A stretch of DNA of 35,467 nt from NCBI GenBank assembly GCA_023132135.1, contig JAGLYR010000028.1:1-35467 (forward strand), written 5' to 3'. A program made the position numbers and the translations under genes. Below the pieces are notes generated by a model, which was given only the letters and a program-made list of their open reading frames with translations, was not told the origin of the DNA and did no database searches. Below, piece after piece: positions 276 through 31,654 of the stretch (position 1 is the stretch's first letter; every line of letters starts with the position of its first letter). The stretch is from Candidatus Eiseniibacteriota bacterium. Lineage in GTDB: Bacteria > Arandabacterota > Arandabacteria > JAGLYR01.

Positions 276-1130
276 CTAGGCAAGAGCCTCCAGATAGGGT
301 CGGATCAGTTTCTCTACCCTGCAGGCGCGTGCAAACCTGATCAGCGTTGTGAGGTCGGCCCCGGACGTTCTCCAGTATGTCTTCAGAGCACCGACAGCCA
401 CATCCATCCCTACCCGCCGCCGATACTGAAAGCAGTCCGCGACCGTCTTCGCCGGGGAGTAGACTCTAACAATCACACCGTCAACCACATGCTTCTCGAC
501 CCCCATGTCAAAGGCCGGGCCTGATCGCCAGATGAAACGGACGGGTGGGTGCTGGAGCCGGGGCTTCTCCGAGCCTCGGCGAAGGGCAACATCGACATTC
601 CAAGGGATCTCCGTGGTCATGTCGTGGTATGCGAGAGCTGAGATGAGACACACGACACCGTTGGGAATCCTGGCAGCCACGGTAGCAAGATCCTGGTTCG
701 ACAGGGGAGGCTGGTCGGCAAGGCGGTACAGACCGCGAGACACGGCTTCGAGGACTCCGTTGTCTCTCATCCAGTACAGGGTATGGGGCGCAATGCCCAG
801 CTTCAGAGCGTCCCTGGTTCGCACCAGCCCACCCTTTGTGCGTATTGCTCGGATCGCAGTCTGCACGCTTCTTCTCGCCAGGGGACTCCGATTTCTCCGA
901 CCCTGTCCAGTTCGTTTCTTGCTCCTTGTCTTGCTGGCTTTGTCTTTGGCCACTTCACGAGGTACATCACTCAGCCGATAGAGGCCCCACTCTTCTCTGA
1001 CGAGCAGAGCCGTATCACGCATGTCATATAGGGTCCTCGGATGAATGCCCCGCCGCAGTGCCTCGCCTGTGCGGATCATGCCGCCGTTTGCCCTGATCTT
1101 GATGATAGCTTCTCGAAAAGATTCCCTCAC
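276..1130 (-). CDS. AbiEi-family antitoxin with duplicated winged-helix domain
   Basis: This 284-residue protein matches AbiEi antitoxins, transcriptional autoregulators of type IV toxin-antitoxin systems. It has two copies of the N-terminal winged helix-turn-helix: residues about 6-55 (GGMIRTGEALRRGIHPRTLY) and 92-142 (GGLVRTRDALKLGIAPHTLY). A very basic linker (KASKTRSKKRTGQGRRNR) joins them. The C-terminal AbiEi domain follows (LISALAYHDMTTEIP, VYSPAKTVADCFQYRRR). Usual family members have one winged helix and about 200 residues, so this one is extended by a duplication. The start is GTG at 1128-1130, with GGGAG about 13 bases upstream. The toxin start abuts its stop, so the pair is translationally coupled. 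Autoregulation through the upstream promoter is expected from the family. Confidence 0.85.
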   Translation of the reverse strand: MRESFREAIIKIRANGGMIRTGEALRRGIHPRTLYDMRDTALLVREEWGLYRLSDVPREVAKDKASKTRSKKRTGQGRRNRSPLARRSVQTAIRAIRTKGGLVRTRDALKLGIAPHTLYWMRDNGVLEAVSRGLYRLADQPPLSNQDLATVAARIPNGVVCLISALAYHDMTTEIPWNVDVALRRGSEKPRLQHPPVRFIWRSGPAFDMGVEKHVVDGVIVRVYSPAKTVADCFQYRRRVGMDVAVGALKTYWRTSGADLTTLIRFARACRVEKLIRPYLEALA

Positions 1131-4930: not shown

Positions 4931-4970
4931 TCTCCGTCCTCCTTGCCCGAATCCATAGATTCCCACATAG

Positions 4971-5030
4971 AAAAAGCGACCGGCGGCAATTGCCTCCGGA
5001 CTCCGAAACTCGGGAGTCCCACCGGTCGCT
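4971..5030 (-). terminator. Three-way-junction terminator with T-tract, copy 2
   Basis: On the minus strand the outer stem AGCGACCGGTGG/CCGCCGGTCGCT encloses GACTC..GAGTC and GGCAATTGCC hairpins and is followed by TTTTT (4971-4975 as A's on +). It lies 30 bases after the stop of the cohesin protein and should end the 12020-5060 operon. It is homologous to 2687-2746. Confidence 0.8.
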
Positions 5031-5059: not shown

Positions 5060-7108
5060 TTATTTCAGCAGAACCATCTTCCTGACCGCTGCGTACTCTG
5101 CTGCCTGCATATGCAGGAAGTAGATACCGGAAGCGACTTCCCTTCCGGCATCGTCCTTTCCATCCCAATGCTGCACCGAATACCCGGCCGGGCACAAACC
5201 GTCCTCGAGTATAGCCACTCGTCGTCCCCGAATATCGTGGACCGTCAGCAGCACATGGCTTGGCTGCGGGATCGAGAAACGAACCGTCGTGCTGGGGTTG
5301 AATGGATTCGGCCGATTCTGCTCCAGAACACAGGAGTCCGCGGTGAACTCCCCGGGCTCAACCCCGGCAAAGCTCTCCACAATCTCCAGACTTCCGTTCT
5401 GCGTGTCGGCCGAAGGGTCTCCCTCGTTGAGATAGGCTCGGGTGACGTTCAAGTATGACGTCGCTCCAAGGGGCGCGCCGGGATCCGCCTCGAAATACAC
5501 GTGGAACAGGGGACCGATTCCTGCCAGAGGAACAGTCCCGGCATGGGCTACCCGGACACTGTCACCAGAAATCCTGCAGGTCGGGATACCCCAGGGATCG
5601 CTGACGGATCCCGAGTCAGTCACTCCGACGGCGTGAACATAGGTCGGATTGTACTGCAGCGTGATCTCGTAGCCCCGAATGGCCATCCCCGTCACATCCC
5701 GGTCCACGAAAATCGGAATCGCGTTGGGAGGATCGGTCAAAGACACCGAGTCGTGCCGGGCATAGATCAGGAGGTCGTAGACCTGGATGGTCCCCGTCTT
5801 GTCCCGGGCCAGGGCCGCATCCTCCACATGCACACTGCAGATGCCGCCTCCAACTGCCATGAAGAGTCCCGACTCGTCGATGGTTCCCACGGACGAGTCG
5901 GTTGTCCCCCAATCGAAGGGAGGTGTTGGAGATCCTCCCACACCAAAGGGCAACGTCTCACCCACAAGCAACTCGGCCGTGTCTGGCGTGATGTAGATGG
6001 AGGGAGGGGCAATTACCTGGAGGTAACCGTCATCGAGAAGGGGGATAAATTGCTCGTCGAACAGCCCCTCGGTGAGATCGAGGTAGGTGCTTCCCGAGGC
6101 ACCCGGTGGAACGTAGCACCTCAGGTACATGACAATCCCACTGCCCGTCAACGCCTCTGTGCCGGCGGTGGCCACCGATACCGATCCGGGCTCGATCAGA
6201 ATCTCGGGCGCTCCCCAGGATTCCGTGAGGGTCCCCGTCTCAATCGCCTCGAGGACTTCGAACCTGGCCGCGGTGAACACCATCGAGAATTCGAGTGAGT
6301 GAATCCCCAGCCCCGAGATATCCGTCACGAGGATAGGAATGTCGAAGGTTTCCTCGGGCACCACGGTCAGGTCGTCGGGGGCCCAGAGTCTCATGGCTCG
6401 TACGGTGATATCACTGTCCGTCGTATCCCGGACTCCCGCCGTGTCCACGGCGAAGACCCTGCAGGTCCCCCACGACATCCCGTGTAGCCAGCCGTTTTCG
6501 TCCATCTCTCCAACCGAGGGATCGGTCGAGCCATACGTATAGGGCGGGGTTCCATACGAGGCGGAGAACTGCAGTGAGTCACCGACCGCAATCTCACCGG
6601 AATTGGGCCAGACATAGATGGTCGGCACCGCACTGATGTTCACATAGCCGTTGTCCGTGGTGTCTTCCGGACTTCCCTCGTTGAACAGGAAGTCGCTGAA
6701 GCTCACCTGAGTGTTGCCATAGTTCGGACCCAGGAGAAACCGCAGGTGGACAAGGTCGCCGTCCCCCTCCAGCGGCTGACCCCCTGCGGAGGTTACGGTG
6801 GCAGTGCCATATCCCGAGTGGAAGATCGCGTCCCCCCAGGAATCACTCAAGGTTCCGGCCTCTATGACGTCGAGTAGGGTCAGGCGGTTGCCGTAGTACG
6901 TCAGATCGAACTCATACGAGTAGACGGCAAGGCCGGTCAGGTCCGTCGTGGTAACCCGGACATCGACCGTATCTCCCACGGTGCCCACGGTATCCGGAAT
7001 GCTGATCTGGACACCAGAGGCTGCTGTCGCCCATGCCGTAACGACGACCAGCGGGAGGAGAATCCCCCAGACCCTGATCTTCTGTTTTCCTCTCCTTGCG
7101 GTTCGCAT
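5060..7108 (-). CDS. Secreted three-cohesin protein with FlgD-like C-terminal domain
   Basis: The start ATG at 7108 follows AAAGGAGAAAGGCG and yields 682 residues; the frame extends further upstream but overlaps the neighbouring gene. A basic signal peptide ends near ATAASG. Three cohesin-type beta domains follow at about 35-160, 238-370 and 450-590, each with the pattern TDLTGLAVYSYEF...DVIEAGTLSDSWG. BIG/Ig-like spacers separate them (IAVGDSLQFSASYGTPPY; LLVGETLPFGVGGSPTPPF). The end (about 600-682) is a FlgD-like domain with NRPNPFNPSTTVRFSIP and final RKMVLLK, used for export or surface attachment in FCB-type bacteria. Cohesins bind dockerins, and the gene 52 bases upstream encodes a dockerin-like module, so a scaffold role is plausible. 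No enzyme domain is visible. Confidence 0.8.
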   Translation of the reverse strand: MRTARRGKQKIRVWGILLPLVVVTAWATAASGVQISIPDTVGTVGDTVDVRVTTTDLTGLAVYSYEFDLTYYGNRLTLLDVIEAGTLSDSWGDAIFHSGYGTATVTSAGGQPLEGDGDLVHLRFLLGPNYGNTQVSFSDFLFNEGSPEDTTDNGYVNISAVPTIYVWPNSGEIAVGDSLQFSASYGTPPYTYGSTDPSVGEMDENGWLHGMSWGTCRVFAVDTAGVRDTTDSDITVRAMRLWAPDDLTVVPEETFDIPILVTDISGLGIHSLEFSMVFTAARFEVLEAIETGTLTESWGAPEILIEPGSVSVATAGTEALTGSGIVMYLRCYVPPGASGSTYLDLTEGLFDEQFIPLLDDGYLQVIAPPSIYITPDTAELLVGETLPFGVGGSPTPPFDWGTTDSSVGTIDESGLFMAVGGGICSVHVEDAALARDKTGTIQVYDLLIYARHDSVSLTDPPNAIPIFVDRDVTGMAIRGYEITLQYNPTYVHAVGVTDSGSVSDPWGIPTCRISGDSVRVAHAGTVPLAGIGPLFHVYFEADPGAPLGATSYLNVTRAYLNEGDPSADTQNGSLEIVESFAGVEPGEFTADSCVLEQNRPNPFNPSTTVRFSIPQPSHVLLTVHDIRGRRVAILEDGLCPAGYSVQHWDGKDDAGREVASGIYFLHMQAAEYAAVRKMVLLK

Positions 7109-7160
7109 CGCCTTTCTCCTTTCTTGTGTCTCGAACGGATTCAAAAGCATGCCAACCGCT

Positions 7161-10100
7161 CTACTTGAGAAGGACCATCTTCCGTTGCCCGGAGAATGCT
7201 CCCGCCGTGAGCCGGTAGAAGTACACTCCGCTGGCCACCATTGCACCGTGCTCGTTCCGGCCGTCCCAGAACACGCTGTGGACGCCCGCCGGGCGAGGTT
7301 CGTCAAGAAGTACCCGGATCAATCTGCCCTTGGCGTCGAAGACCTTGAGGCTCGCAGGTACCGGCCCGTGAACTGTCTTCGGGATTGCGAACTGAATGGT
7401 CGTGCTCGGGTTGAAGGGGTTCGGGATGTTCTGTTCCAGTGCAAAGGCCGCGGGCAGCCTGCCCGGTACGAGACCCCTGGCAGGACGAGCCCGGGATGTG
7501 AGGTCCTGCTCGTTCACCCAGGCGCGGTCGAAGGCTACCGTCACACGGGCGTCTTCCGGGATGTCCTCGGAAATCGCCAGGGTGAGGGTCGCCAGGGGCG
7601 CGACAGGAATCTCCGTTGTTGAGGCCAGGGCAATCCGCGCGACACCGTCCTCTCCCAGCGTCGAGTAGAAGGCGGAGCCGTCCACCTCGGGCGTCTGTGC
7701 GATCCCCAAGATCCGAACTGCCTCGGAGTTGGACCGGACGGTGAACTGGGCCGAGTAGACGTCTCCCGAACCGGTCAACCGTATCGGCACGGTCACTTCC
7801 GTCCCCGGCTCCAGATCGAAGCTGTCCAGAGAAATGTCGAAGTCGCCGGGCGTCATTCCCGGCCAGTCGTCGAATGCAATCATGTCCTTGGTGGCGATCG
7901 ACCCGGCCATGCACGGGAAGTAGGGAATCAGACCGGCGACGTACTGGAGGATGTACGATGCATCGAGCGCCGACAGCCCGGCCGCGCAGGTTACATCTCC
8001 GATCACCTGCTGTTGAGCAGTCAGGGTTGTGTCGGCCACGAGCCACCGAAGGACCAGGGAAGCATCCCAGGCGTGAATCGCTCCGTTGAGAGAGACATCG
8101 CCCAACAGGTAGTTCTCGAGGCCCTCGGCAGCCCACGGCATGTAGTCCACCATGTCTGTCACGGGATCCCCGAGACCGGTCGGGTTATAGAGCCCCCCGG
8201 TCCCGGTATCGTCCGATGGGTCGTAGGGCCCCGAGTTATCGCCCCACCAGCAGTACTCGGCCGACACGGTGTGAGCCATCCCGGTGTTCCTGATCGCGTA
8301 TGATGAGTTGTCGAAGAAGTCGCACGAGTCGACCTCGCCGATGGCCGGATCACCACTGGCCTGTTGGTAATTGATGCCAACGGTGTTGTGAGCAAAGATG
8401 CAATTGTCGAAGGAGGGGCTCACGCTTCCCTTGACGATCACGGCTCCGTAGCTCGAGTAATTATACGAATAGGAGAACACGCAGTTCCGGAACCGCACAC
8501 TGGGGCTCAGAGCCGTCGACTGGATATCCATCCAACCCCAACGGCTGGAGAAGCCGTTGGTGTCTGTCGAGTCTCCGTTCGTGTCGCCCCCGTAGAAGTC
8601 GTCCGTCGTGGAAGTGAAAACGATCAGACTCTCCGGGTCGGCCTTGCCCTCGGCAATGAGGCCGCGTTTCACGTACAGACCGATACCGCTGTAGAACTTG
8701 ATCACCAGGCCGGGCTGGAGCGTGAGAATGGCTCCGGTGCCGACCGTCATATTGGAGAGAAGGACGTACGGGATGTTCTCGATCTGGCCGACATTCCGGG
8801 TGATCCAGGTGACATCCTGGGCGAGGGTCTCTCCTATAATCCCGAGAGCCGTATAGCCGTTTCCGATGAACTCGTTTCCGGTGGTCACCGGGTTTGACAG
8901 AAGCGTCATTGCGATGGGTGTGCGCCCGTTGTCGACAAAGTCGCAGTTCTCGACGATGGGTTCTGAGACACCGGCCAGTCTTAGTCCGTAGTAGTACCCA
9001 TGCTCAATCGTTGAGTTCGACAGTGTCGGTGAAGCGGATTCCACATACACAGCTCCGTAGCCGTACCGATCCCCATACCGGAGGATGCAATGGTCGAGGA
9101 GACACAGGGTGTCCACGCTCACGTCATAGAAACCGATAGCGTTCCAGCTCCCCGGGCTGGGAGACGTGAGTGCCCCATCGCCGTTGGTGTCCAGGGGATT
9201 CCCGTACGTATCGTCCCGAAGAGAAGTAAAGACGATCGGACTGAGTTCCTCGCCGTCCGCCAGGAGTCCCCCGTTGACGGCGAGCAATTCCCCGATGTAA
9301 AACGGTGAGCTGTACTGCATCTTGACCACGATCCCGGGTGCAATTGTAAGCGTCGCCCCGAACTGAACCGTGAGATTCGAGCCCAGGATGTATGTGATGT
9401 TGTTGTACCCGGCCACGTTGCGAACCGGGAGCGTGGCGTCCTGCGCCAGGTATCCTCCGATAATTCCGAGTGCGGTCATTCCGTTTGCGTCGAAGGAATT
9501 GCCGCTGAAGGTAGGGTTGCAGAGTACGTCGACGGCGACGGGCTCCCGAGTGGACTGGCGGATCAGGTTGCCGGTGATCGTCGGATTGGAGAGACCTTCG
9601 ATCCAGATGCCAATCCCGTTGAACTCGAAACTGCAGTTGGTAATGGACGGGCTGGCGTTCTCCATGTGGATCACACCCTGGGCCGACGAGCCTCCGTACC
9701 AGAAGAGGCAGTTCTCCAACCGGCAGTTGGCATCGTCCGCTGTGGGATAGAACTCGATAGCCGGCCAGTCTGCGTTGGTGGGGCCGGTGGCTGAACCGTC
9801 CACGTTAGAATCGCCACCGTGACTGTCGTCCTTGATGTCGGTGAAGACGACGGGGCTTTGCTTCACGAGAATCGGTCCGGGTTCCGCGATGAGCCCTCCA
9901 TGGACAATGATCCCATAGCTGGAGCACTTCACCACCACGTCCGGGTCGATAGTCATGATCACGTCGGTCCCGATCGTGAGAGCTCCCTGAACCAGAAAAT
10001 AGGGGAAGGGTTCTGGAAACTGTGGGATGCCGACGGTGCTTACCTCGAGCGTCGCGTTTTCGGAAAGAGTCTCGGAGATGATGCCGACGGCGTGGTACGC

Positions 10101-12020
10101 GTTCTGGTCGAAGGTGTTGCCGGTAAACGTGGGGTTCGAGAGAACCGAGACATGGATCGGAACGCTGTAGTGGTTGAAGAAGAAGTTGTCGGTGACGAGA
10201 GCCTCGGAGTTGCCGTCGCAGCGCACTCCGACCCGGTTGGTGTAGAACGTGCACTGGTCAATTGCCGGTGAAGAGCTGGAACACCAGACCGTGCCCTCGT
10301 ACGCGCCGTACCCGTCGTAGCCTCCGTATCCAATCCAGCAGTGCTGCAACACCGACTCGGTGTCGATGGCTGTGGATACGAACTGAATGTGTCCCCAATC
10401 GCTGTGGTTCGGTACCGTGGCCGAACCGTCGTCGTTGGTGTCGGCGGGGTTTCCGTGGGTGTCGTCCCGCCAACTCGTGAAGACGACCATCGAGTCGGGT
10501 GTCCCTTCGGCCCGAAGGCCGCCCTCGATGATGATGCTGGTGTACGCGTGCTTGAACTTGATCACGACATCCGGGTCCACGGTCAGCACGGCACCCAGAT
10601 CCATCGTGAGATTTCCGACCAGATAATACGTGATGTTCTCATATCCGGCCACGTCGCGACGCCGGATCAGCGAGTTGACCCCCACGGTCTCGCTGATCAG
10701 ACCCAGGGCAGTCACTCCGTTGGACACGAATGTGTTCCCACTGAAGACCGGATCCGCCGAGACGGACATGAGAATCGGTGTGTATGTGCAGAATGCGAGG
10801 GTGTTATCGGTCACCGCCGGGTCGGACAGACCCGCGATCTCGAGCCCGTACTGGGCGTCCGAGAACTCCGAGTTGGTAAAGGAGACGTCGGTTCCCGTGT
10901 TATATGTCCTCACAAGGCAGTTGTATGTTCCGTACCCTCCGTACTTGACCACGCAGTAGTCGATCGTGCCTGAGCTTCCCTCCCCGAAAACGAGGCCACC
11001 CCAGTCCCCGGAGGCAGGAGCGGTCGTGGAACCATCGTTGTTGGTGTCGTTCGGATCGCCGTAGTTGTCATCCTTAAACGACGTGAACACGATGAGACTA
11101 TCCGACTTGCCATCCGCAACCAGACCGCCATTGACGAAGATGTCGACACTGGCGCTCAGGAACTTGGTCACAATGCCGGGGTCAATGGTCAGGGTGGCGC
11201 CTGCATTCACCGTGATGTCGCCGAGGAGAAGATAAGTCACGTTCGGGATCGGACTGCCGCCGACCTGCGTACCTCGAACATAAAGTGTAGCATCAGACGA
11301 GAGGGTGGTAGGGAGAAGACCGATCGCGTCGTAGCCATTGTCGGACGTGGATCCAAAGGTGACTGCGTCGAAGACCGGATCGGCGTCTATCGTAATGGCA
11401 AGGGGAACCGAGGTGCAGGCGTTGATGTCCGTATTTCGAATGGTGGGTGTCACCGGACCGGTGCACTTGATGCCGTAGTATCCGGCATTCACCACACAGT
11501 TTTCAATCGTGGGACTTGCGTCCTCGCATACGATGATCGCGTTGCTGCTGTACCCTCCGAACCAAAGCTCGCAGTGCTCAAGACGGGATGTGTCCTCCGC
11601 TGTACTGTAGAAGTAGATGTTGTTCCAGTTCTGGTTCGCGGGAAGGGTCGCGTTTCCGTCGCCGTTCGTGTCGTCCCCCAAAGGTGGCGGGATATTATCG
11701 TCCCGAATGGAGGTGAAGTAGATGGTGGAATCCGGACCGTTCCCCCCGACGGCATAAAGGGTCCCGTAGACGGAGAGCGCCCTGTACAGGTTGAATTTCA
11801 CGACTACGCCGGGATCGATCCTGAGCGTTGCGCCCGACTGGACCGCGACGGATCCCGTGACCTCATAGATTCTGCCGCCGACAGTATCCCAAACCGTGTC
11901 GACCCAGATGTTGCCGGAGACCTGCTTGACTGCCATCGCCCCCGACGGACAGAGGGTGAGGGCAGCGACCGTAACAACGAGAAGCGCTGCCTGCTTGACA
12001 ATGATTCTGTGACGAGACAT
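7161..12020 (-). CDS. Giant secreted beta-helix protein with dockerin, cohesin-like and FlgD-like domains
   Basis: It has 1619 residues from ATG 12020, seven bases after GGAGG. A signal peptide (residues 1-31, ending GAMA) leads into about six tandem units of roughly 210 residues forming right-handed parallel beta-helices (repeated ASPTIENC, NPTFSGNSFDANG). Each unit includes a conserved FTS.RDD..G...DTN.DG acidic loop likely to bind calcium. At about 1303-1365 lies a dockerin type I-like duplicated helix pair (GDVSLNGAIHAWDASLVLRW; GDVTCAAGLSALDASYILQY) with partly lost calcium ligands. A cohesin-like domain follows (about 1390-1507), then a FlgD-like C-terminal domain ending RKMVLLK. Beta-helices of this type bind or cleave polysaccharide or act as adhesins; no catalytic site is evident. 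It is first in an operon with the three-cohesin gene. Confidence 0.8.
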   Translation of the reverse strand: MSRHRIIVKQAALLVVTVAALTLCPSGAMAVKQVSGNIWVDTVWDTVGGRIYEVTGSVAVQSGATLRIDPGVVVKFNLYRALSVYGTLYAVGGNGPDSTIYFTSIRDDNIPPPLGDDTNGDGNATLPANQNWNNIYFYSTAEDTSRLEHCELWFGGYSSNAIIVCEDASPTIENCVVNAGYYGIKCTGPVTPTIRNTDINACTSVPLAITIDADPVFDAVTFGSTSDNGYDAIGLLPTTLSSDATLYVRGTQVGGSPIPNVTYLLLGDITVNAGATLTIDPGIVTKFLSASVDIFVNGGLVADGKSDSLIVFTSFKDDNYGDPNDTNNDGSTTAPASGDWGGLVFGEGSSGTIDYCVVKYGGYGTYNCLVRTYNTGTDVSFTNSEFSDAQYGLEIAGLSDPAVTDNTLAFCTYTPILMSVSADPVFSGNTFVSNGVTALGLISETVGVNSLIRRRDVAGYENITYYLVGNLTMDLGAVLTVDPDVVIKFKHAYTSIIIEGGLRAEGTPDSMVVFTSWRDDTHGNPADTNDDGSATVPNHSDWGHIQFVSTAIDTESVLQHCWIGYGGYDGYGAYEGTVWCSSSSPAIDQCTFYTNRVGVRCDGNSEALVTDNFFFNHYSVPIHVSVLSNPTFTGNTFDQNAYHAVGIISETLSENATLEVSTVGIPQFPEPFPYFLVQGALTIGTDVIMTIDPDVVVKCSSYGIIVHGGLIAEPGPILVKQSPVVFTDIKDDSHGGDSNVDGSATGPTNADWPAIEFYPTADDANCRLENCLFWYGGSSAQGVIHMENASPSITNCSFEFNGIGIWIEGLSNPTITGNLIRQSTREPVAVDVLCNPTFSGNSFDANGMTALGIIGGYLAQDATLPVRNVAGYNNITYILGSNLTVQFGATLTIAPGIVVKMQYSSPFYIGELLAVNGGLLADGEELSPIVFTSLRDDTYGNPLDTNGDGALTSPSPGSWNAIGFYDVSVDTLCLLDHCILRYGDRYGYGAVYVESASPTLSNSTIEHGYYYGLRLAGVSEPIVENCDFVDNGRTPIAMTLLSNPVTTGNEFIGNGYTALGIIGETLAQDVTWITRNVGQIENIPYVLLSNMTVGTGAILTLQPGLVIKFYSGIGLYVKRGLIAEGKADPESLIVFTSTTDDFYGGDTNGDSTDTNGFSSRWGWMDIQSTALSPSVRFRNCVFSYSYNYSSYGAVIVKGSVSPSFDNCIFAHNTVGINYQQASGDPAIGEVDSCDFFDNSSYAIRNTGMAHTVSAEYCWWGDNSGPYDPSDDTGTGGLYNPTGLGDPVTDMVDYMPWAAEGLENYLLGDVSLNGAIHAWDASLVLRWLVADTTLTAQQQVIGDVTCAAGLSALDASYILQYVAGLIPYFPCMAGSIATKDMIAFDDWPGMTPGDFDISLDSFDLEPGTEVTVPIRLTGSGDVYSAQFTVRSNSEAVRILGIAQTPEVDGSAFYSTLGEDGVARIALASTTEIPVAPLATLTLAISEDIPEDARVTVAFDRAWVNEQDLTSRARPARGLVPGRLPAAFALEQNIPNPFNPSTTIQFAIPKTVHGPVPASLKVFDAKGRLIRVLLDEPRPAGVHSVFWDGRNEHGAMVASGVYFYRLTAGAFSGQRKMVLLK

Positions 12021-12140: not shown

Positions 12141-12242
12141 CAGTGTAAGAATGACCAATAGATCGGCCGAAGTCTACTGCAAATCTGAAAAAAAGAGGTC
12201 AACCAGAAGTTGCAGGGATAGTTGCAGATGATGTGCAGGTAT

Positions 12243-12292
12243 CTCGGGGCAGACTACTCAATCCTGGAACTAATTGTGGCAATTGGGGTTAC
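12243..12292. repeat. Dispersed repeat B, copy 2
   Basis: It is 88% identical to 4551-4600 over 50 ungapped bases. Its right end provides most of a likely -35 hexamer for the downstream C25 peptidase. Confidence 0.85.
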
Positions 12293-12316
12293 ATTTCCGG
12301 GCGAATCCGGTATAAT
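12288..12316 (+). promoter_or_regulatory. Predicted promoter of the C25 peptidase gene
   Basis: GTTACA (12288-12293) is 17 bases from a perfect TATAAT (12311-12316). The -35 is four of six and lies mostly inside repeat B. The transcript would start near 12323, about 43 bases before the ATG, and GAGG precedes the start codon. Confidence 0.5.
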
Positions 12317-12365
12317 GGAGAGGTCGGGAGATGTCGGACACACTTCCAATCGTGAGGTAATCGCC

Positions 12366-14696
12366 ATGAAATGGATATTCAGAGCTGCGGTTCTTGGTGT
12401 CGTCTCTTGCCTCTCTGTCACGGCTCCAGGTGCCGTCTTCGGTGCCCCGTGGGTTGTGGCGAGTTCCATCGAGGCTGGTCGTGTGATCGTGGACGTTGTC
12501 TCCGGTGACTACCGAATTATCGATTGGGAAGAGGGCCACCGTGTCCGGATGGAGGACTGCGCGTATCTGGCTGCGCCGGGAAAGCCGCTGCTCCCGGCCA
12601 AGAGATTCCTGATCGCGCTGCCTCCCGGTGCGAGGGTGACCTCCGTCGAGGCCGAGGGCATCGGGGCCACCGATCTTCCGGGTCGCTACCAGATAGAACC
12701 CGCACCACCGCCGATCCCTCTTGCCGACCCGGTTCGGCGGGCGGAACTTCTCGAGGAGATGGGACGGGAGTGGAGGAACAGCAAAGAAGAGGCCTACTCC
12801 TCGGATCTGGCATACCCGCGCGAGATCGTAACGCTCGCTGGATCGGGCACGCTCCGGAAGTACGCCTACGCGTCGATCTCCTTTTGCCCGTTCCGGTACC
12901 ACCCCCAATCCGGCCGGTTGATCCACTACGAGGGCGCCAGAGTCGTCATCCACTGCACACTGCCGCAGGCGGGTTCGGTCGAAGCCCAGAGGATTGAGGA
13001 TCTGAAACGAGATACGGCGGCCGACCTCCGGGCATCGACGCTGTTCGAGAACTACAGTCGGGTGCGGGATCTCTACCGACCAGGGGATATGTCCGGGGCT
13101 GAGAGAGATGAAACTTACGATTACGTCGTCATCACGACGGATGCCAACCTGGATGCCTTTGATGCCTCTGATTTCCTGGGCTGGAAGACTGCGCTGGGGT
13201 ACAGCATCCGCGTCCTTCTGGTGACAGATCCGGAAATCACAGGCCAGCCCGGCGCTGACCTGGCGGAGCAGATCCGTAACTTCCTGCGTGCGTACTACGG
13301 GCTATGGGGGATCGAGTACGTGCTCCTGGTGGGCAATTACGACGCGGTGCCCATGCGTTACTGCTATCCGGACCCGAACTACCACGCGCACAACCCGTCC
13401 GATCCGTCCAACTATGGGGGTTCGGTTCCGACCGACTACTACTATGCCGATCTATCTTTGCCGGATGCCGATTCCTGGGACTCGGACGGCGATGGCTATC
13501 CTGGAGAGTACACCGAGGACAACCCGGATTTCCTGGCAGAGGTCTACGTGGGGCGGATTCCGGTCAACAACAACGCGCGAATCACCTATGCGCTCAACAA
13601 GATCGTCCTTTTCGAGCAAGACAACGGGGACTGGAAGGATCGGGCTCTCCACGGAGCTTCCATTGCCTTTTACGAAAACGAGGATTACTCGGGCTACCCG
13701 AAGGTCGATTTCGCCGATTACATGAACGCTATCGAAACCGATATCATGACCAGCTGGACCATCAGCCACTACAGCGAACAGGAGGGGCTGGACCCGTCGG
13801 TGTTCGCATGGCCGGCGCTCACCCAGACGGCCTTCACCAGCGACTGGCGAAGCGGCCAGTACGGCGTTGTGAATTGGGGAGGACACGGGTGGCCGGCCGG
13901 AGGTAGTCGGACCATATGGGCGTGGGACGACGGAGATGGTGTACCTGAGCACGGGAACGGTGAGCTCGAGAGCGCGTACATTCTCTGCTGCGACGACGTT
14001 CTCGAGGACGACTACCCGTCGATCGTTTTTGGAGTTGGTTGCAGCGTTGGGTATCCGGAACCGAATGCGCTGGGCCGGATGGGCGTGGACCTTCTCACGA
14101 GGCCGGGGTGGGGTGCAGGCGCGGCCGTGATCACGGCCTCACGCTCCGCCGCGGCGGCGGGAGGGTGGCCGGATTTTCCGGGTGGCGTGCAATCGCTGTG
14201 CTACGAGTTCGATCGGTTTCTAATCAGTGGCCCTTCGGGACCGGAGAAGGTCGGCGATGCCCTGTACGATTCCAAACACTACTGCCACGTCAATTTCGGT
14301 TGGGACCACATCTATGAATTCAAGAACCTGTTCGATCACAATCTCTACGGCGACCCGGCGATGGCGCGCGAGGGATTTCCGACGGCCATCGAGCCAGACA
14401 TCCCCGTCGCATCCGGGAAATCCCTCCATATTCGGCAGAATCGCCCGAACCCGTTCAACCTTGCCACGGAGATTCGATACTCGCTGCCGGCGGGCTGCCG
14501 GGTGAAGATAGCAGTCTTCAACATCCGTGGGCAGAGGGTGATGACTCTTGTGGATGAAGTCCAGCAACCGGGTCTCAAGAGTGTGAGATGGGACGGGCGG
14601 AACATGAATTCCTCCGAGGTCCCGAGCGGAGTGTACTTCTACCGGATTCAGGCAGGAGAAATTGTGGAAACGCGGAGGATGGTGTTATTGAGGTGA
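12366..14696 (+). CDS. Secreted C25 (gingipain-type) cysteine peptidase
   Basis: The start ATG 12366 is chosen because it follows GAGG and begins a signal peptide (MKWIFRAAVLGVVSCLSV); the longer frame has no leader-like start. The 776-residue product has an N-terminal prodomain (about 30-250) and a C25 peptidase core (about 250-660) beginning DYVVITTDANLDAF and holding YVLLVGNYDAVPMRY, SVPTDYYYADL and EVYVGRIPVNN. The likely catalytic histidine is H507 in NWGGHGWPAGG and the nucleophile C559 in FGVGCSVGYPE. A FlgD-like domain (about 695-776; NRPNPFN, final RRMVLLR) should direct export or surface attachment. Family members cleave proteins outside the cell. A second C25 gene lies at 20170-22593 and a serpin lies between them. 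Confidence 0.9.
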   Translation: MKWIFRAAVLGVVSCLSVTAPGAVFGAPWVVASSIEAGRVIVDVVSGDYRIIDWEEGHRVRMEDCAYLAAPGKPLLPAKRFLIALPPGARVTSVEAEGIGATDLPGRYQIEPAPPPIPLADPVRRAELLEEMGREWRNSKEEAYSSDLAYPREIVTLAGSGTLRKYAYASISFCPFRYHPQSGRLIHYEGARVVIHCTLPQAGSVEAQRIEDLKRDTAADLRASTLFENYSRVRDLYRPGDMSGAERDETYDYVVITTDANLDAFDASDFLGWKTALGYSIRVLLVTDPEITGQPGADLAEQIRNFLRAYYGLWGIEYVLLVGNYDAVPMRYCYPDPNYHAHNPSDPSNYGGSVPTDYYYADLSLPDADSWDSDGDGYPGEYTEDNPDFLAEVYVGRIPVNNNARITYALNKIVLFEQDNGDWKDRALHGASIAFYENEDYSGYPKVDFADYMNAIETDIMTSWTISHYSEQEGLDPSVFAWPALTQTAFTSDWRSGQYGVVNWGGHGWPAGGSRTIWAWDDGDGVPEHGNGELESAYILCCDDVLEDDYPSIVFGVGCSVGYPEPNALGRMGVDLLTRPGWGAGAAVITASRSAAAAGGWPDFPGGVQSLCYEFDRFLISGPSGPEKVGDALYDSKHYCHVNFGWDHIYEFKNLFDHNLYGDPAMAREGFPTAIEPDIPVASGKSLHIRQNRPNPFNLATEIRYSLPAGCRVKIAVFNIRGQRVMTLVDEVQQPGLKSVRWDGRNMNSSEVPSGVYFYRIQAGEIVETRRMVLLR

Positions 14697-15567: not shown

Positions 15568-16890
15568 CTATGAAGATGGATCCAGGACCCGCCCGACGAA
15601 GAGAATGGTCCCCGTCACACGGTCCCGAATGAGGAACACGAAAGGCCGGTCGGCCGTGAACTCGAATTCTGCGACCGGAGGCTCGATCGCGGACTCAAAG
15701 AACACGATGGCCGTTGCCGCCGCCGCTTCGGTTCCCTTTTCGTCGAGAGCGATGAAGGTCTTGTGATAGGCGTTGTCGATCCAGATTCCTCCGCCCTCGA
15801 TCATCCCGGCGAAATCCGGCGTGGTGAAGGGCGCCACCATCCCCATCCCCATCAGGACGTCCTTCAGGCTGAGACTGGGCGATTCGAAGCTGAATCGCGG
15901 GAGGGTGACGGCAACGCTCGCCGGGTCCAGGTCTTCGAGGATGCCCGCAAGGACGCCGCTGTCCAGACTCGCCTCGAACTCCTCAAACCGTCCCGCCGAG
16001 GGCAGCAGAAACACCATGGAGAGCTCGTCGTTCCGGTAGTTCATCTCCAGCGCCTGGTACCCGTCACTCTCGGCATAGCCGAACGTCTCGGCCTGCTGCA
16101 TCATGGGAGCGCCGGCATGGCTGCCATCGAGACAGAAGAAGACCCCTTCATGAGTCTGGTCCTCCTGGAACGGAAGAGCCCAGGGCGCCTTGAAGTAGAG
16201 GGCGTTGGTCAGGACCGCCACGGTCGGCGGCTGAATCGAACCCTCGGGAAGAAGATCCAGAATGCGGTCCCGGGTTTCGTCCGCCACCCATTCGTTGATG
16301 ATCCGGCGGCAGGTCTCCGGCTCACGTCCGAAATCCAGGAGTCTGACCCCCGAACCATAGTGGACCGCCAGGAGGTCCAGGTATTCCTCGATGAACGGGC
16401 GGTTGATCTTTCCCCAGAAGGCGTTGGCGACGTGCAATTCTACCGGGTCGTTTTCGGCATCTCCCGGCATGTTCCGCTTCTCGAGATCCAGATCCAGCGC
16501 ATTGAAGGCATCGTGCAGGGTTTCGTCGTCGAGGCCATAGTGCATCACCTCGGCAATCTCCTGTGCCGTCCGGCCTGTAGCTCCGGCATACGCCATGGCG
16601 AACGCGATCCGAATGCTGAAGGGTGACAGGCAAAGATTGCCGTCCAGGGCGCGAAGCGCCTGGTAGAAATCGATGGCGAGTTTGTGGTTCCCCGCCACGA
16701 GCTGGTCGATGTCCTCTGCGGTGGCAGCGGGGGAGAGGTCCCTGGCGAGGTCGGATTGCCGGGTTTGCCAGGGTGGATCACTTGCGGTCGGCCGGTCGGC
16801 CGACTCGCCGCATCCCGGGAGTATGGCCAGAGCCAGAAGGAATGTCAGAACGACGCCGAGGGACCGGGTCATGCCGAAGTCGGGTCTCAT
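15568..16890 (-). CDS. Lipoprotein serpin (serine/cysteine protease inhibitor)
   Basis: ATG 16890 follows GGAGGTGCCCACG and gives 440 residues; the longer frame lacks a ribosome-binding site. A lipobox (LAILPGCGES) predicts a membrane-anchored lipoprotein. The remainder is a full-length serpin: NLCLSPFSIRIAFAMAYAGA, then VANAFWG, NALYFKAPWALPF and FTADRPFVFLIRDRVTGTIL. The hinge of the reactive loop, DEKGTEAAAATAIVFFESAI, keeps the small residues needed for loop insertion, so an inhibitory serpin is likely. By spacing from the hinge, P1-P1' would be near FES-A (Ser or Glu). Serpins trap proteases by irreversible complex formation. It lies between two C25 peptidase genes, so it may protect the cell from its own or foreign proteases. 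Confidence 0.92.
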   Translation of the reverse strand: MRPDFGMTRSLGVVLTFLLALAILPGCGESADRPTASDPPWQTRQSDLARDLSPAATAEDIDQLVAGNHKLAIDFYQALRALDGNLCLSPFSIRIAFAMAYAGATGRTAQEIAEVMHYGLDDETLHDAFNALDLDLEKRNMPGDAENDPVELHVANAFWGKINRPFIEEYLDLLAVHYGSGVRLLDFGREPETCRRIINEWVADETRDRILDLLPEGSIQPPTVAVLTNALYFKAPWALPFQEDQTHEGVFFCLDGSHAGAPMMQQAETFGYAESDGYQALEMNYRNDELSMVFLLPSAGRFEEFEASLDSGVLAGILEDLDPASVAVTLPRFSFESPSLSLKDVLMGMGMVAPFTTPDFAGMIEGGGIWIDNAYHKTFIALDEKGTEAAAATAIVFFESAIEPPVAEFEFTADRPFVFLIRDRVTGTILFVGRVLDPSS

Positions 16891-17011
16891 CGTGGGCACC
16901 TCCATCTGGAGAAACATGCGCGGGAACACCAGAGGCGGAAGACGTTGGGTCCGTACAGCTGGAACCCGCAGTGGAGTGGAACGGTTCCCTGCCCTCACTA
17001 TGCCACGGTAT

Positions 17012-20169: not shown

Positions 20170-22593
20170 TCACTTGAGCAGTACCATTCGCTCCGACCAT
20201 CTCTCACCGTTCCACCGGAGCTCGCAGAAGTACACTCCCGCGGCCACCTCGATGCCCCTGGCATCGGTCCCGTTCCAGATGGTCTTGTGGAAACCTGCGC
20301 GTCTCGGGCCGTCCACGAGCGTCCGCACGTGCTGGCCCAGGCTGTTATAGACTGCGAGCTTCGCCCGGGCGGTCGATCCCTGGGGAATCGCATAGGTGAC
20401 TTCGGTCACCGGGTTGAAGGGGTTGGGGACAATGGAGACGATCTCGAGCTGCGCCGGAAGACCTGACGTTTCCGGGGAAACGGACGTGGGATCCAGCTGA
20501 ACGTCCGCCTGCCCTTCGTAAGGGAGGAAATCGTGGGCGCAGACGGTGACGTACAGGATCCCTTGGGATTCGGGAACGAAACCGAAGCTTGCCACGCCGC
20601 CCGCGGTCTCCACTACTTCATATACGTCTCCATCCTTCCACAGACACACGGTCGCGCCGTCCACCGGAGTCCCGCCGTCGGCCACATCGACCGGGAAAGT
20701 GGTGTACAGGCCAGCGGTGAGAGTTGCACCGTGGGTCACCGTCAAGGTCCCCGGATCGTGGGTCCACACGGTCAGTCCCGGGTCGCCAATCAGGTGGTAT
20801 TGTGTGAAACACCATTGGTTGAGGTTGTAGGGATCGTAGGGATCATACGCGTCGTTCTTGAGACGGGTGAAGTTGTCTCCTAGGCGGTAGATATCGAGAT
20901 CGAACAGGTTCCGGAAGAAATAGTGATTCTGGCGCAGTGAGTAATAGTCGGGATCTTCGACATAGCCGCCCCACCCGACGTTCGTGTTGCCCAGGAAGGC
21001 GACCCCGCCGCCGTTGGCATTGCGGAGGAAGGCCTCGGCTATGCACTTCGGGAGAGCCGGGAAGTCGCAGGGATGGCAGCCGACGGCCAGCAGAATACTC
21101 AGGCGGTCACCGTTGGTCAGCGCGTCAACATCGCCGACATACATCAGCTGGCCGTGGCAGGTCCACCCGGTGGCCATCGCATTGTAGTTGCAGTGTTCAT
21201 CGTGATTCACGATGTGGTGTCCGTAATCAAGGTAGGCCAGGACGTCCGCCTTGTGGAGGCCGGGTTCACTGTCGTATTCCGTGCTCAGTGACCATCCCGG
21301 AGACAGGTAGGGGCGGATGTAGTTCTCCTGCCAGAGCTCCCCGCTCTGGTCGCCGCAGGTTGTGATGTCGAACCCAAAGAGGGCAGCCTCGGTCACGTAG
21401 CCGGCCAGGGGAGGGTTCTTCTCGTAGGTGAGGATCTTGTCGATCACGGTGACGATCTGGCTGGACGTACCCACCGAGACCCGTCCGACGTGGACTTCCA
21501 GAATCCAGTCGTCATCGAAGTCCGCATAGTATGTATCGTTCCTGATATAGGCCACTTCGTAGCCGACGATGGGAGTCGTGACCGTTCGAACGTGGTAGGG
21601 AATGCCGCCGGCATCGGCTCCCAGAACGAAGTACATGGCGCCCCAGTTCGTGTGCGCGTCCACGATGAAGGCGCGGACCCTGTCCAGATCGGAGCCCGTG
21701 TACCCACCCTCGCTGTAAATCCAGTCGGTGGACACCACCGTCGAGCGCAATCCCTGCCTGGTTCGCCAGTCTGCGAGGGGCTGGAAGTCGTCGACCCAGG
21801 CGGGCTGAGTGATGATGACGTAGTCGAACTCGCCGGGTTCCACGCCGCGAGTTCTCCCGGCCCCGGACACCTGGAGTTCCACGTCCGCAGGGTTCATCAC
21901 CGTCTCCTCGAGGATCCTCTCGTACGCAGCACGCGAGCCCTCGGAGATCCGCGAGGGAAGGTAGTCGCCACAGATGCGGCCGGGCTCTCCCTCAAGGATC
22001 ACCTCCATGGACGTGGCCCGCGTCAGCCTGCCCGCGGCCGGTGAATACCGCAAGGGGAGAACCTGAAGGATCGCGAGGTTCTGGCCGGCCAGGTCGGCCT
22101 GTCCCGTCAGCGCAACCCACCGGGAGGGATACACGTCCGGAGAGGCGTAGACGGAGGGATTGGGTTCAGCGAAGGTTCCGGAGTCGCCGAGCGGCGGCCC
22201 AATGGGTTGAGGCCACTGCGCCGGATAGATCGTGTAGGTTCCCGGAAGGGCAATGCTCTCGACGGAGGCCGACCGGATTCCGGTAACCCTCATTCCTTCG
22301 GGTATGGCCACGCGAACCGTTCTGGCCGGGAGCCTCGGTTTTCCCGGGTCCGTCAGGTGGTCGAAGCCCTCCATCTCGACTGTGTCGAAGCCGGACAGGT
22401 GTCCGAAGCTCAGAGCGCGGGCCGAAAGCGAGACCCGGAACCGGACTTCGTAACGGTTGCCATCGAAGTTCGTCTCGACCTCTCCGAAGAATGGTTCCGC
22501 AGACGTCAGGGTGGGCACGGAGAGGATCGCAAGGCAGTATACGGCTGCGATCGCAAGGCATCGATCCAGGAACCTGTGCGCAGTTCTTCTCAT
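20170..22593 (-). CDS. Second secreted C25 (gingipain-type) cysteine peptidase
   Basis: The 807-residue product starts at ATG 22593 behind GAGGTGAG. It has a signal peptide (CLAIAAVYCLAILSVPTLTS), a prodomain to about 255 and a C25 core starting DYVIITQPAWVDDFQPLADW. MYFVLGADAGGIPYH and LEVHVGRVSVGTSSQ follow. The likely catalytic histidine is H467 in IVNHDEHCNYNA and the nucleophile C506 in LLAVGCHPCDFP. A beta-sandwich region follows the core, then a FlgD-like end (about 715-807; IVPNPFNPVTEVTY, final ERMVLLK). It differs considerably from the first C25 protein, especially around the active site, so it is an older paralogue rather than a recent copy. It should act outside the cell or on its surface. 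Confidence 0.9.
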   Translation of the reverse strand: MRRTAHRFLDRCLAIAAVYCLAILSVPTLTSAEPFFGEVETNFDGNRYEVRFRVSLSARALSFGHLSGFDTVEMEGFDHLTDPGKPRLPARTVRVAIPEGMRVTGIRSASVESIALPGTYTIYPAQWPQPIGPPLGDSGTFAEPNPSVYASPDVYPSRWVALTGQADLAGQNLAILQVLPLRYSPAAGRLTRATSMEVILEGEPGRICGDYLPSRISEGSRAAYERILEETVMNPADVELQVSGAGRTRGVEPGEFDYVIITQPAWVDDFQPLADWRTRQGLRSTVVSTDWIYSEGGYTGSDLDRVRAFIVDAHTNWGAMYFVLGADAGGIPYHVRTVTTPIVGYEVAYIRNDTYYADFDDDWILEVHVGRVSVGTSSQIVTVIDKILTYEKNPPLAGYVTEAALFGFDITTCGDQSGELWQENYIRPYLSPGWSLSTEYDSEPGLHKADVLAYLDYGHHIVNHDEHCNYNAMATGWTCHGQLMYVGDVDALTNGDRLSILLAVGCHPCDFPALPKCIAEAFLRNANGGGVAFLGNTNVGWGGYVEDPDYYSLRQNHYFFRNLFDLDIYRLGDNFTRLKNDAYDPYDPYNLNQWCFTQYHLIGDPGLTVWTHDPGTLTVTHGATLTAGLYTTFPVDVADGGTPVDGATVCLWKDGDVYEVVETAGGVASFGFVPESQGILYVTVCAHDFLPYEGQADVQLDPTSVSPETSGLPAQLEIVSIVPNPFNPVTEVTYAIPQGSTARAKLAVYNSLGQHVRTLVDGPRRAGFHKTIWNGTDARGIEVAAGVYFCELRWNGERWSERMVLLK

Positions 22594-27667: not shown

Positions 27668-29530
27668 TCATACGTCTCTGAATCCCATCTGCAGCTCATA
27701 CATCCCGGCCTCACCTCTCTTCGTCACATCGAAGCCCGACGTTTCGAATATATGAAGCATGGGCTTGTTCTCCATCAACACTTCTGCCGTGAAGCCAAGG
27801 AGACCATGGTTCTTCGCCAGATAGGTCAGATAGGAGAGGATTTCTCTGGCTATTCCTTTGTTGTGATACTCATCCCTCACCTCAAATGCAACCTCGGCGG
27901 TATGCGAAGCCTCGTGTATGTAGTATCGTCCCTCACCGATGATCTTCTCCTTGCCGCCTTCCACCATCACGGCGACGATCGCCATTTCGCGGGTGTAGTC
28001 GACAATCACGAACTCCTGCAGACGCTCGTGCGGCATGTCCTTTCTCGATGACATGAACCTGAGGTACAGGCTGACATCCGAAAGGGAATAGATGAAGTCC
28101 TTGAGCAAGGGTTCATCGCTTATCTTCATGGGTCGCAGGAAAACCCCAAGTCCGGATTTCGTAGTCCTGTGCGTTTCCAGCTCCTCGGGATACTCTCCCC
28201 CTTTCCCTTCCACAATCTTCTGATCACTGTATATCAGGCCCAGCTTCTTTGCTTCCTTCACGAGCCAGGGCCTGAAGTTCGGATGCGCTATGGATATCAG
28301 CTCCATTGCCCTTTCCCGGATATTCCTGCCATGCAGATATGCTATCCCATACTCGGTTACGACGTAATGGATGTCCCCCCTGACCAGACTGACACCCGCT
28401 CCCTCCTTGAGAAACGGCACTATTCGCGATACCTTGCCTGACTCGGCGGTTGACTCAAGCGCCAGTATTGTCTTGCCACCCGGCGCCAGAATTGCGCCCC
28501 TCATGAAATCGGCCTGGCCTCCAATGCCACTGTAGAATACGTTTCCAATCGATTCCGCCGTTGCCTGTCCGGTGAGGTCCAGCTCCAGACAACTGTTTAT
28601 CGCTGTCATGTTGTCGTGCTGCGCTATGATCAAGGGGTTGTTTGTGTTGTCGATTGTGTCGAACATGATGGCCGGATTGTCGTGGATATACTCATAGGTC
28701 TCTTTCTTGCCCATACAGAAAGTCGCTACGGTCTTGCCGGGATTGATGGTCTTCAGCGTGTTGTCTACCACACCGCTTTTCATCAATTCCACGATACCGT
28801 CACTCAAGAGCTCAGTGTGCACGCCCAGGTGCTTCTTCTCGTGAAGGCTGGACAGAACTGCATTTGGTATGCTGCCATATCCAACCTGAATCGTGTCTCC
28901 GTCCCGGATGAGCTGTGCGACGTATTTCCCAATCTGCTCGGCGATCTGGCCTGGTGGATCTGCACCATACTCCAGCAGGGGTTCATCGTGACGAATAACG
29001 AAATCAACATCCTGCATGCTCAAGAATCCATTCCCGTGCGTGCGTGGCATGTTCGAGTTGACCTGTACGACCACCAGCTTGGATTTTTCCGTTGCCGCCT
29101 TCACAATATCGACACTTACGCCAAGACTCATGTACCCGCGCTCATCCGGAAGTGACGCCTGTACGAGAGCCACGTCAATGGGGATGAACCCGCGGTAGAA
29201 CAGATCCGGGACGTTTGAGAGAAATATCGGGGTATAGTCGGCAGCTCCCCTGTTCACCGCATCCCGGGTGCTGCTTCCGACGAAAAAGGAGTTGTGGCGG
29301 AAGTTGCGCTTGAACACCTCATCCGTGTATGGAGCAACGCCCAGCGTCCACACGTGGAGGATCTCAGCATCGAAGAAGGCCTTCGGACGAGCTTCGACGA
29401 AATCCACGAGGGCTTGAACAAGGTGCTGGGGTTCGCCGCAACCCGTACCGACGAATATCCGGTCGCCTCGATGGATGTGGCTGAATGCCTCCTCCTCCGA
29501 TACATACTTCTCTGAAAACGCGTTGGCCAT
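27668..29530 (-). CDS. Acetyl-CoA hydrolase/CoA-transferase fused to a GNAT acetyltransferase domain
   Basis: The 620-residue protein starts at ATG 29530 behind GGGAGGAG. Residues about 1-430 match the acetyl-CoA hydrolase/4-hydroxybutyrate CoA-transferase family (VALVQASLPDERGYMSLGVS, AINSCLELDLTGQATAESIG, SGIGGQADFMRGA, YGIAYLHGRNIRERA). The catalytic glutamate of that family should lie in the CLELDLTG segment. Residues about 465-620 form a GNAT domain (FEVRDEYHNKGIAREILSYL, then LMENKPMLHIFETSGF), resembling the acetyltransferase part of protein acetyltransferases such as Pat. It should move or hydrolyse CoA esters, with the GNAT part possibly sensing or acetylating. It has its own promoter. 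Confidence 0.9.
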   Translation of the reverse strand: MANAFSEKYVSEEEAFSHIHRGDRIFVGTGCGEPQHLVQALVDFVEARPKAFFDAEILHVWTLGVAPYTDEVFKRNFRHNSFFVGSSTRDAVNRGAADYTPIFLSNVPDLFYRGFIPIDVALVQASLPDERGYMSLGVSVDIVKAATEKSKLVVVQVNSNMPRTHGNGFLSMQDVDFVIRHDEPLLEYGADPPGQIAEQIGKYVAQLIRDGDTIQVGYGSIPNAVLSSLHEKKHLGVHTELLSDGIVELMKSGVVDNTLKTINPGKTVATFCMGKKETYEYIHDNPAIMFDTIDNTNNPLIIAQHDNMTAINSCLELDLTGQATAESIGNVFYSGIGGQADFMRGAILAPGGKTILALESTAESGKVSRIVPFLKEGAGVSLVRGDIHYVVTEYGIAYLHGRNIRERAMELISIAHPNFRPWLVKEAKKLGLIYSDQKIVEGKGGEYPEELETHRTTKSGLGVFLRPMKISDEPLLKDFIYSLSDVSLYLRFMSSRKDMPHERLQEFVIVDYTREMAIVAVMVEGGKEKIIGEGRYYIHEASHTAEVAFEVRDEYHNKGIAREILSYLTYLAKNHGLLGFTAEVLMENKPMLHIFETSGFDVTKRGEAGMYELQMGFRDV

Positions 29531-30289: not shown

Positions 30290-31654
<1,365 letters not shown>

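Follow-up and report, generated by a model that had tools for sequence, protein, structure and literature searches.

The 35,467-nt stretch of DNA analysed here (the window) makes up contig C201 in a draft genome of 3.4 Mb (345 contigs, 96% complete) whose phylum is represented by eight genomes in the collection that we searched. On its minus strand lie two adjacent genes, P0002 and P0001, which encode a giant beta-helix protein with both a dockerin and a cohesin and a protein with three cohesins, respectively; a co-encoded pair of this kind had been proposed by an earlier sequence-only reading of this DNA, and both the modules, recovered by Pfam and profile searches, and the two-gene layout bear it out. 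The features referred to below are the following.

4969..5030, minus strand: intrinsic-terminator-like hairpin just 3' of P0001, followed by UUUUUCU (-34.2 kcal/mol, z -3.5)
5060..7108, minus strand: P0001, predicted exported protein of 682 aa (signal peptide, cohesin 1-Big_2-cohesin 2-Big_2-cohesin 3, FlgD-like tail)
5063..5308, minus strand: FlgD-like / T9SS-type C-terminal tail of P0001 (FlgD_ig 1.7e-7)
5381..5749, minus strand: cohesin 3 of P0001
5768..6001, minus strand: second Big_2-type Ig-like domain of P0001 (Pfam)
6014..6394, minus strand: cohesin 2 of P0001 (PF00963 and cohesin profile)
6395..6625, minus strand: first Big_2-type Ig-like domain of P0001 (Pfam and alignment)
6635..7012, minus strand: cohesin 1 of P0001
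7016..7108, minus strand: signal-peptide-like N terminus of P0001, with AAAGGAGAAAGG just before
7161..12020, minus strand: P0002, predicted exported protein of 1619 aa (signal peptide, beta-helix, dockerin, cohesin, FlgD-like/T9SS-type tail)
7164..7421, minus strand: FlgD-like / T9SS-type C-terminal tail of P0002 (FlgD_ig 7.5e-8)
7467..7838, minus strand: cohesin of P0002 (cis cohesin)
7911..8114, minus strand: dockerin of P0002
7962-7997, minus strand: dockerin calcium loop 2, DVTCAAGLSALD
8064-8099, minus strand: dockerin calcium loop 1, DVSLNGAIHAWD
8160..11927, minus strand: right-handed beta-helix of P0002
11931..12020, minus strand: signal-peptide-like N terminus of P0002, with AAAGGAGG just before
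30290-31621, minus strand: enolase

We placed the true start of P0001 at ATG 7108, within a TTG-started ORF that opens at 7306, and that of P0002 at ATG 12020; each start has a Shine-Dalgarno-like sequence and opens into an N terminus that, read from the sequence, looks like a signal peptide. With these starts the interval 5060-12020 given in the sequence-only reading is right. The two genes share a strand, are separated by 52 bp and each have a ribosome-binding site, and these features, together with the signal-peptide-like starts and the hairpin with its U-run, give P0002-P0001 an operon layout and the look of a closed two-gene transcription unit. No Rfam family was found in the window.

The Pfam matches of P0001 above cut-off were restricted to Cohesin (1.4e-17, over two stretches), Big_2 and FlgD_ig, with bit scores against Cohesin (PF00963) of 64.7 for P0001 and 28.2 for P0002 (curated cut-off 24.1). 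Cohesin 3 is absent from the PF00963 matches and was recognized by our cohesin profile and by its alignment with orthologous third cohesins. This profile scored the three P0001 cohesins at 1e-36, 4e-35 and 4e-33 and the cis cohesin of P0002 (Pfam 2.5e-6) at 2e-31, all four being rows of the same profile. It also matched solved cohesins in the PDB, the best being 2xdh, a non-cellulosomal cohesin of Archaeoglobus fulgidus, and a model of the P0002 cohesin (moderate confidence) gave TM values of about 0.5 against 1ohz, 3ul4 and 2xdh. Together, the profile and the model point to the Cohesin beta-sandwich fold.

Most of P0002 is a beta-helix of ~1250 residues (Pfam Beta_helix 1.8e-45), built of about six ~200-residue repeats that are spaced ~600 nt apart in the gene, and we found no enzyme domain in this dockerin carrier. 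Each repeat carries a DxNxDG-type loop (roughly one calcium-type loop per repeat, at 8570-11680 on the minus strand), and the loop residues are largely invariant in an alignment of four orthologs.

The dockerin of this copy falls below the Pfam cut-off. A Pfam search with full-length P0002 reported no dockerin at E<=1, and the isolated module matched Dockerin type I (PF00404) at an E-value of 0.024 (15.3 bits, below the curated cut-off of 22.9). The evidence from its relatives is as follows: all 12 aligned members (orthologs and one relative) used to build a dockerin profile matched Dockerin_1, the best at 1.1e-8, and the profile itself retrieved 15 PDB sequences at E<=0.01, every one of them a dockerin or dockerin-bearing by name. 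Both of the duplicated calcium loop-helix motifs of this family are present, and the two halves are quasi-symmetric: depending on the ortholog, 6-13 of 22 residues are identical. Loop 1 has the pattern D-V-S-L-N-G-x-x-x-A-W/Y/F-D, with D1, S3, N5 and D12 kept in all 13 orthologs aligned, while in loop 2 the ligand at position 5 is lost in most of the 13; the sequence-only reading, which had called the calcium loops degenerate, was thus correct for loop 2 but not for loop 1. Positions 10-11 of both loops (A-aromatic in the one, A-L or A-F in the other) are strongly conserved. AlphaFold models of the dockerin, alone or with the cohesin and tail, had helices as expected at low confidence (pLDDT about 37-47), and a fold search with such a model returned dockerins as 12 of its top 12 matches, which, as the model is of low confidence, is only suggestive. 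On the strength of the alignments and profile matches, we take the P0002 module to be a genuine dockerin.

Both proteins end in FlgD-like tails, as had been noted from the sequence, although such tails do not single out this pair: they occur at at least 37 places in the source genome and so are a general export mark. Among type IX sorting-domain families only FlgD_ig passed its cut-off; Por_Secre_tail/TIGR04183 did not, Por_Secre_tail falling short of its cut-off in P0001 and being absent from the matches listed for P0002, a difference from type IX cargo that carries that domain. Other properties agree with type IX cargo, as the tails are C-terminal, the modelled P0002 tail resembles PorU and PorZ of this system in a fold search, and the genome encodes the translocon protein SprA (PF14349, 72.1 bits, cut-off 27). 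The presence of SprA makes surface export of both proteins plausible.

Elsewhere in the window, two C25 gingipain-like peptidases, both with FlgD-like tails (12222-14696, plus strand, and 20170-22593, minus strand), flank a serpin (15568-16998, minus strand; 1e-98), a possible protease/inhibitor neighbourhood. In addition, there is a fusion of acetyl-CoA hydrolase/transferase and GNAT acetyltransferase domains (27668-29530, minus strand) and an AbiEi-type antitoxin/regulator (276-1130, minus strand) for which no AbiEii partner was found among the scanned neighbouring ORFs, the contig end being close by.

We searched 386 related and diverse genomes with an alignment of the dockerin-cohesin region and obtained matches in 25 genomes. 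A cross-genome search with an alignment that still included the tail was swamped by tail matches, and the tail was then removed. After fetching and annotating the loci and searching further, we identified P0002 orthologs in 12 genomes beyond the source. Three other phyla are involved: one with five genomes in the collection, two of which have the ortholog; one with four, of which a single one does; and one with 47 (the third phylum below), where the nine carriers belong to one family. Identity with the window copy is 37-56%, measured over about 1600 aa or, for copies truncated by a contig end, over the available stretch. Wherever the contig runs on (11 genomes of 11), an ortholog of P0001 comes next on the same strand; the twelfth locus ends at a contig edge, and every complete P0001 partner has three cohesins. 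The conservation of the whole P0002-P0001 pair, in order and across three other phyla, is the main new result of this work, and it shows that the sequence-only reading was justified in treating the two genes as a unit. Most third-phylum loci have an extra single-cohesin gene after the pair, the start of which is also present in genome G433. No other window gene is shared with the ortholog loci, save for tail-only or generic matches.

In the window's own phylum, the other seven genomes gave no P0002-type match; four of them have other dockerin-cohesin proteins. Against named genomes the C-terminal part of P0002 matched almost only the generic FlgD-like tail, with a few weak longer matches and no named orthologs, and a plasmid search found no ortholog, only a partial match in Rhodothermus (27%) to the C-terminal part. 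As a yardstick for horizontal transfer we used the window enolase, which is 65-69% identical to its counterparts in genomes of other phyla vs 50% to that of one own-class genome, none being found in two relevant genomes; either the window enolase or the own-class copy may be transferred or paralogous.

The cohesin profile identified 18 cohesins in the source genome, and the genome-wide dockerin count that the sequence-only reading had suggested as a check came, besides P0002, to about six copies of a second, longer variety and one canonical dockerin. These cohesins and dockerins are on a few contigs, in which cohesin-only genes adjoin dockerin genes (C179, C173 and C157). On contigs C173, C179 and C185 the second variety has an insert and a FEDLMIFAMNY half and is followed by a cohesin and a FlgD-like tail; these genes form clusters that have cohesin-only genes in between. 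The scanned dockerin carriers have beta-helix, FN3, Ig-like or FG-GAP/UnbV domains. Neither on them nor among the scanned window ORFs did we find a glycoside hydrolase, which within this scope agrees with the earlier statement that none is present. It therefore looks as if several cohesin-dockerin sets serve non-cellulosomal surface proteins in this organism.

A collection of viral contigs yielded only two dockerin loci. In one (L175:75-1555; IMGVR_UViG_3300007533_000439, IMG/VR) a two-gene unit, signal peptide-cohesin-dockerin followed by cohesin-tail, adjoins a 678-aa ORF that by eye resembles a phage head/portal protein, so this contig is either mis-binned host DNA or a phage carrying such a pair. 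In the other (L308:1309-3207; IMGVR_UViG_3300035183_000846, IMG/VR) a beta-propeller-like ORF has a Thr/Pro-rich linker and a terminal dockerin, 47% identical to that of the window, with no adjacent cohesin.

Cohesins and dockerins outside a cellulosome are already known from Archaeoglobus (PMC9705933), ANME archaea (PMC9012536) and Cloacimonadota (PMC8542988), so a setting of this sort, noted in the sequence-only reading, is not new in itself. In A. fulgidus the dockerin of ORF2375 and the cohesin of ORF2376 bind tightly and specifically (PMC9705933); as at our locus, the genes are adjacent in number, the dockerin is on one and the cohesin on the other, and there is no cellulosome, and this cohesin (2xdh) is the one closest to our profile in the PDB. 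That system is archaeal, whereas the present one is conserved in several bacterial phyla, places three cohesins on one partner, has its dockerin on a giant beta-helix protein and ends in FlgD-like/T9SS-type tails. ANME archaea also have a dockerin and multiple cohesins outside cellulose degradation, with function unknown; they belong to another domain of life and have other partner domains, and the conserved beta-helix/three-cohesin pair is not reported there (PMC9012536). In Candidatus Stygibacter (Cloacimonadota), a 3,755-aa cohesin scaffoldin with carbohydrate-binding modules has a conserved C-terminal sorting domain, to which the FlgD-like tails here may correspond, and, as here, accompanying dockerin proteins; its dockerins are on enzymes (GH18, GH57 and peptidases) (PMC8542988), unlike that of the beta-helix carrier. 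With clostridial cellulosomes, whose type I dockerin is quasi-two-fold with a potential for dual binding (PMC12484212), the locus shares the cohesin and dockerin families; it differs in that P0001 (cohesin, Big_2, FlgD_ig) has no carbohydrate-binding module, no carbohydrate-active or other catalytic dockerin protein was found among the scanned dockerin proteins and window ORFs, and the export tail is of Gram-negative type. In the literature that we searched, we found no description of the conserved beta-helix/three-cohesin gene pair.

We next consider which cohesin the P0002 dockerin would bind. The dockerin is the best-conserved domain between phyla (mean identity 55%, vs 42% in the final portion of the beta-helix), the P0001 cohesins 1, 2 and 3 follow at 38, 31 and 28%, and the cis cohesin, which adjoins the dockerin, is the least conserved and fastest-evolving at 22%. 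A constrained dockerin beside a drifting cohesin, together with the conserved partner gene, favours docking in trans, with P0001 as the acceptor, over a lock within the same chain; trans docking has a direct precedent in the binding of ORF2375 to ORF2376 (PMC9705933). We consider it reasonably probable that P0002 and P0001 are a dedicated non-cellulosomal pair in which the dockerin binds the P0001 cohesins on the cell surface. Against certainty on an exclusive pairing stand, mainly, the 18 cohesins and further dockerins of the source genome, which make other partners possible; in addition, dockerin conservation can have reasons besides partner binding, and loop 2 is degenerate.

The juxtaposition of dockerin and cohesin in P0002, which recurs in many other proteins of related genomes and in several more of the source genome, could also mean a daisy chain: the dockerin of one P0002 would engage the cohesin of its neighbour in the chain, another P0002 or a different dockerin-cohesin protein of the genome, to give a linear surface polymer that P0001 caps or branches. 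We regard this as unlikely: in most third-phylum orthologs the cis cohesin escapes the profile, whereas the dockerin and the three-cohesin partner persist, and the count of co-occurring modules carries a bias, both having been part of the search profile. The same widespread order, and a linker in P0002 of ~20 residues that would permit it, are compatible with a clasp in which the dockerin closes the C-terminal stalk on its own chain's cohesin and the partnership with P0001 is incidental; this is quite improbable, as the two modules evolve at different rates, the linker ranges from ~20 to ~60 residues among relatives, the AlphaFold model has no confident packing of the two, and a clasp gives no reason for a three-cohesin gene to be strictly paired with P0002. 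Finally, the modules may not dock at all and may be structural beads (an Ig-like fold and an EF-hand-like calcium module) that are co-expressed for another reason. The degenerate loop 2 would suit this, and plain beta-sandwich domains with a cohesin-like fold exist elsewhere, reportedly in TMEM132; it is nevertheless very improbable given the strong conservation and quasi-symmetry of the dockerin half-sites, with positions 10-11 of each loop among them, and the pairing of dockerin and cohesin gene products across phyla.

Under trans docking, signal peptides would take P0001 and P0002 across the inner membrane, and the FlgD-like tails would probably direct both through the outer membrane by a type IX-like route. 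The cohesins of P0001 would then be bound by the dockerin that follows the long beta-helix in P0002, and P0001 may thus be a small scaffold for up to three beta-helix rods (a putative 3:1 stoichiometry), the cohesin of P0002 being a further, optional docking site; such a scaffold might be self-assembling, as the sequence-only reading had it, and the product may lie on the surface and act in adhesion or as a surface layer. More tentatively, with a chance that we put a little short of even, the locus belongs to a conserved surface-assembly system that spans phyla: a cassette of two genes, at times joined by a third that encodes a single cohesin, in which rods would be bundled on a platform of three cohesins by a dockerin that keeps one calcium loop intact.

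For years, non-cellulosomal cohesins and dockerins have been catalogued with no role clearly assigned to them, and a defined cross-phylum pair with a predicted partner for its dockerin reduces that question to a binding test on a few domains. The unusual dockerin specificities (A-aromatic recognition positions and one intact calcium loop) may also provide orthogonal protein connectors. As the pair is shared with 12 other, mostly unrelated, genomes, cohesin-dockerin docking, best known from the digestion of cellulose, is probably used here for a different cell-surface structure, and if the cassette reading is true, it would be a non-enzymatic cohesin-dockerin bond that builds a surface fibre or layer.
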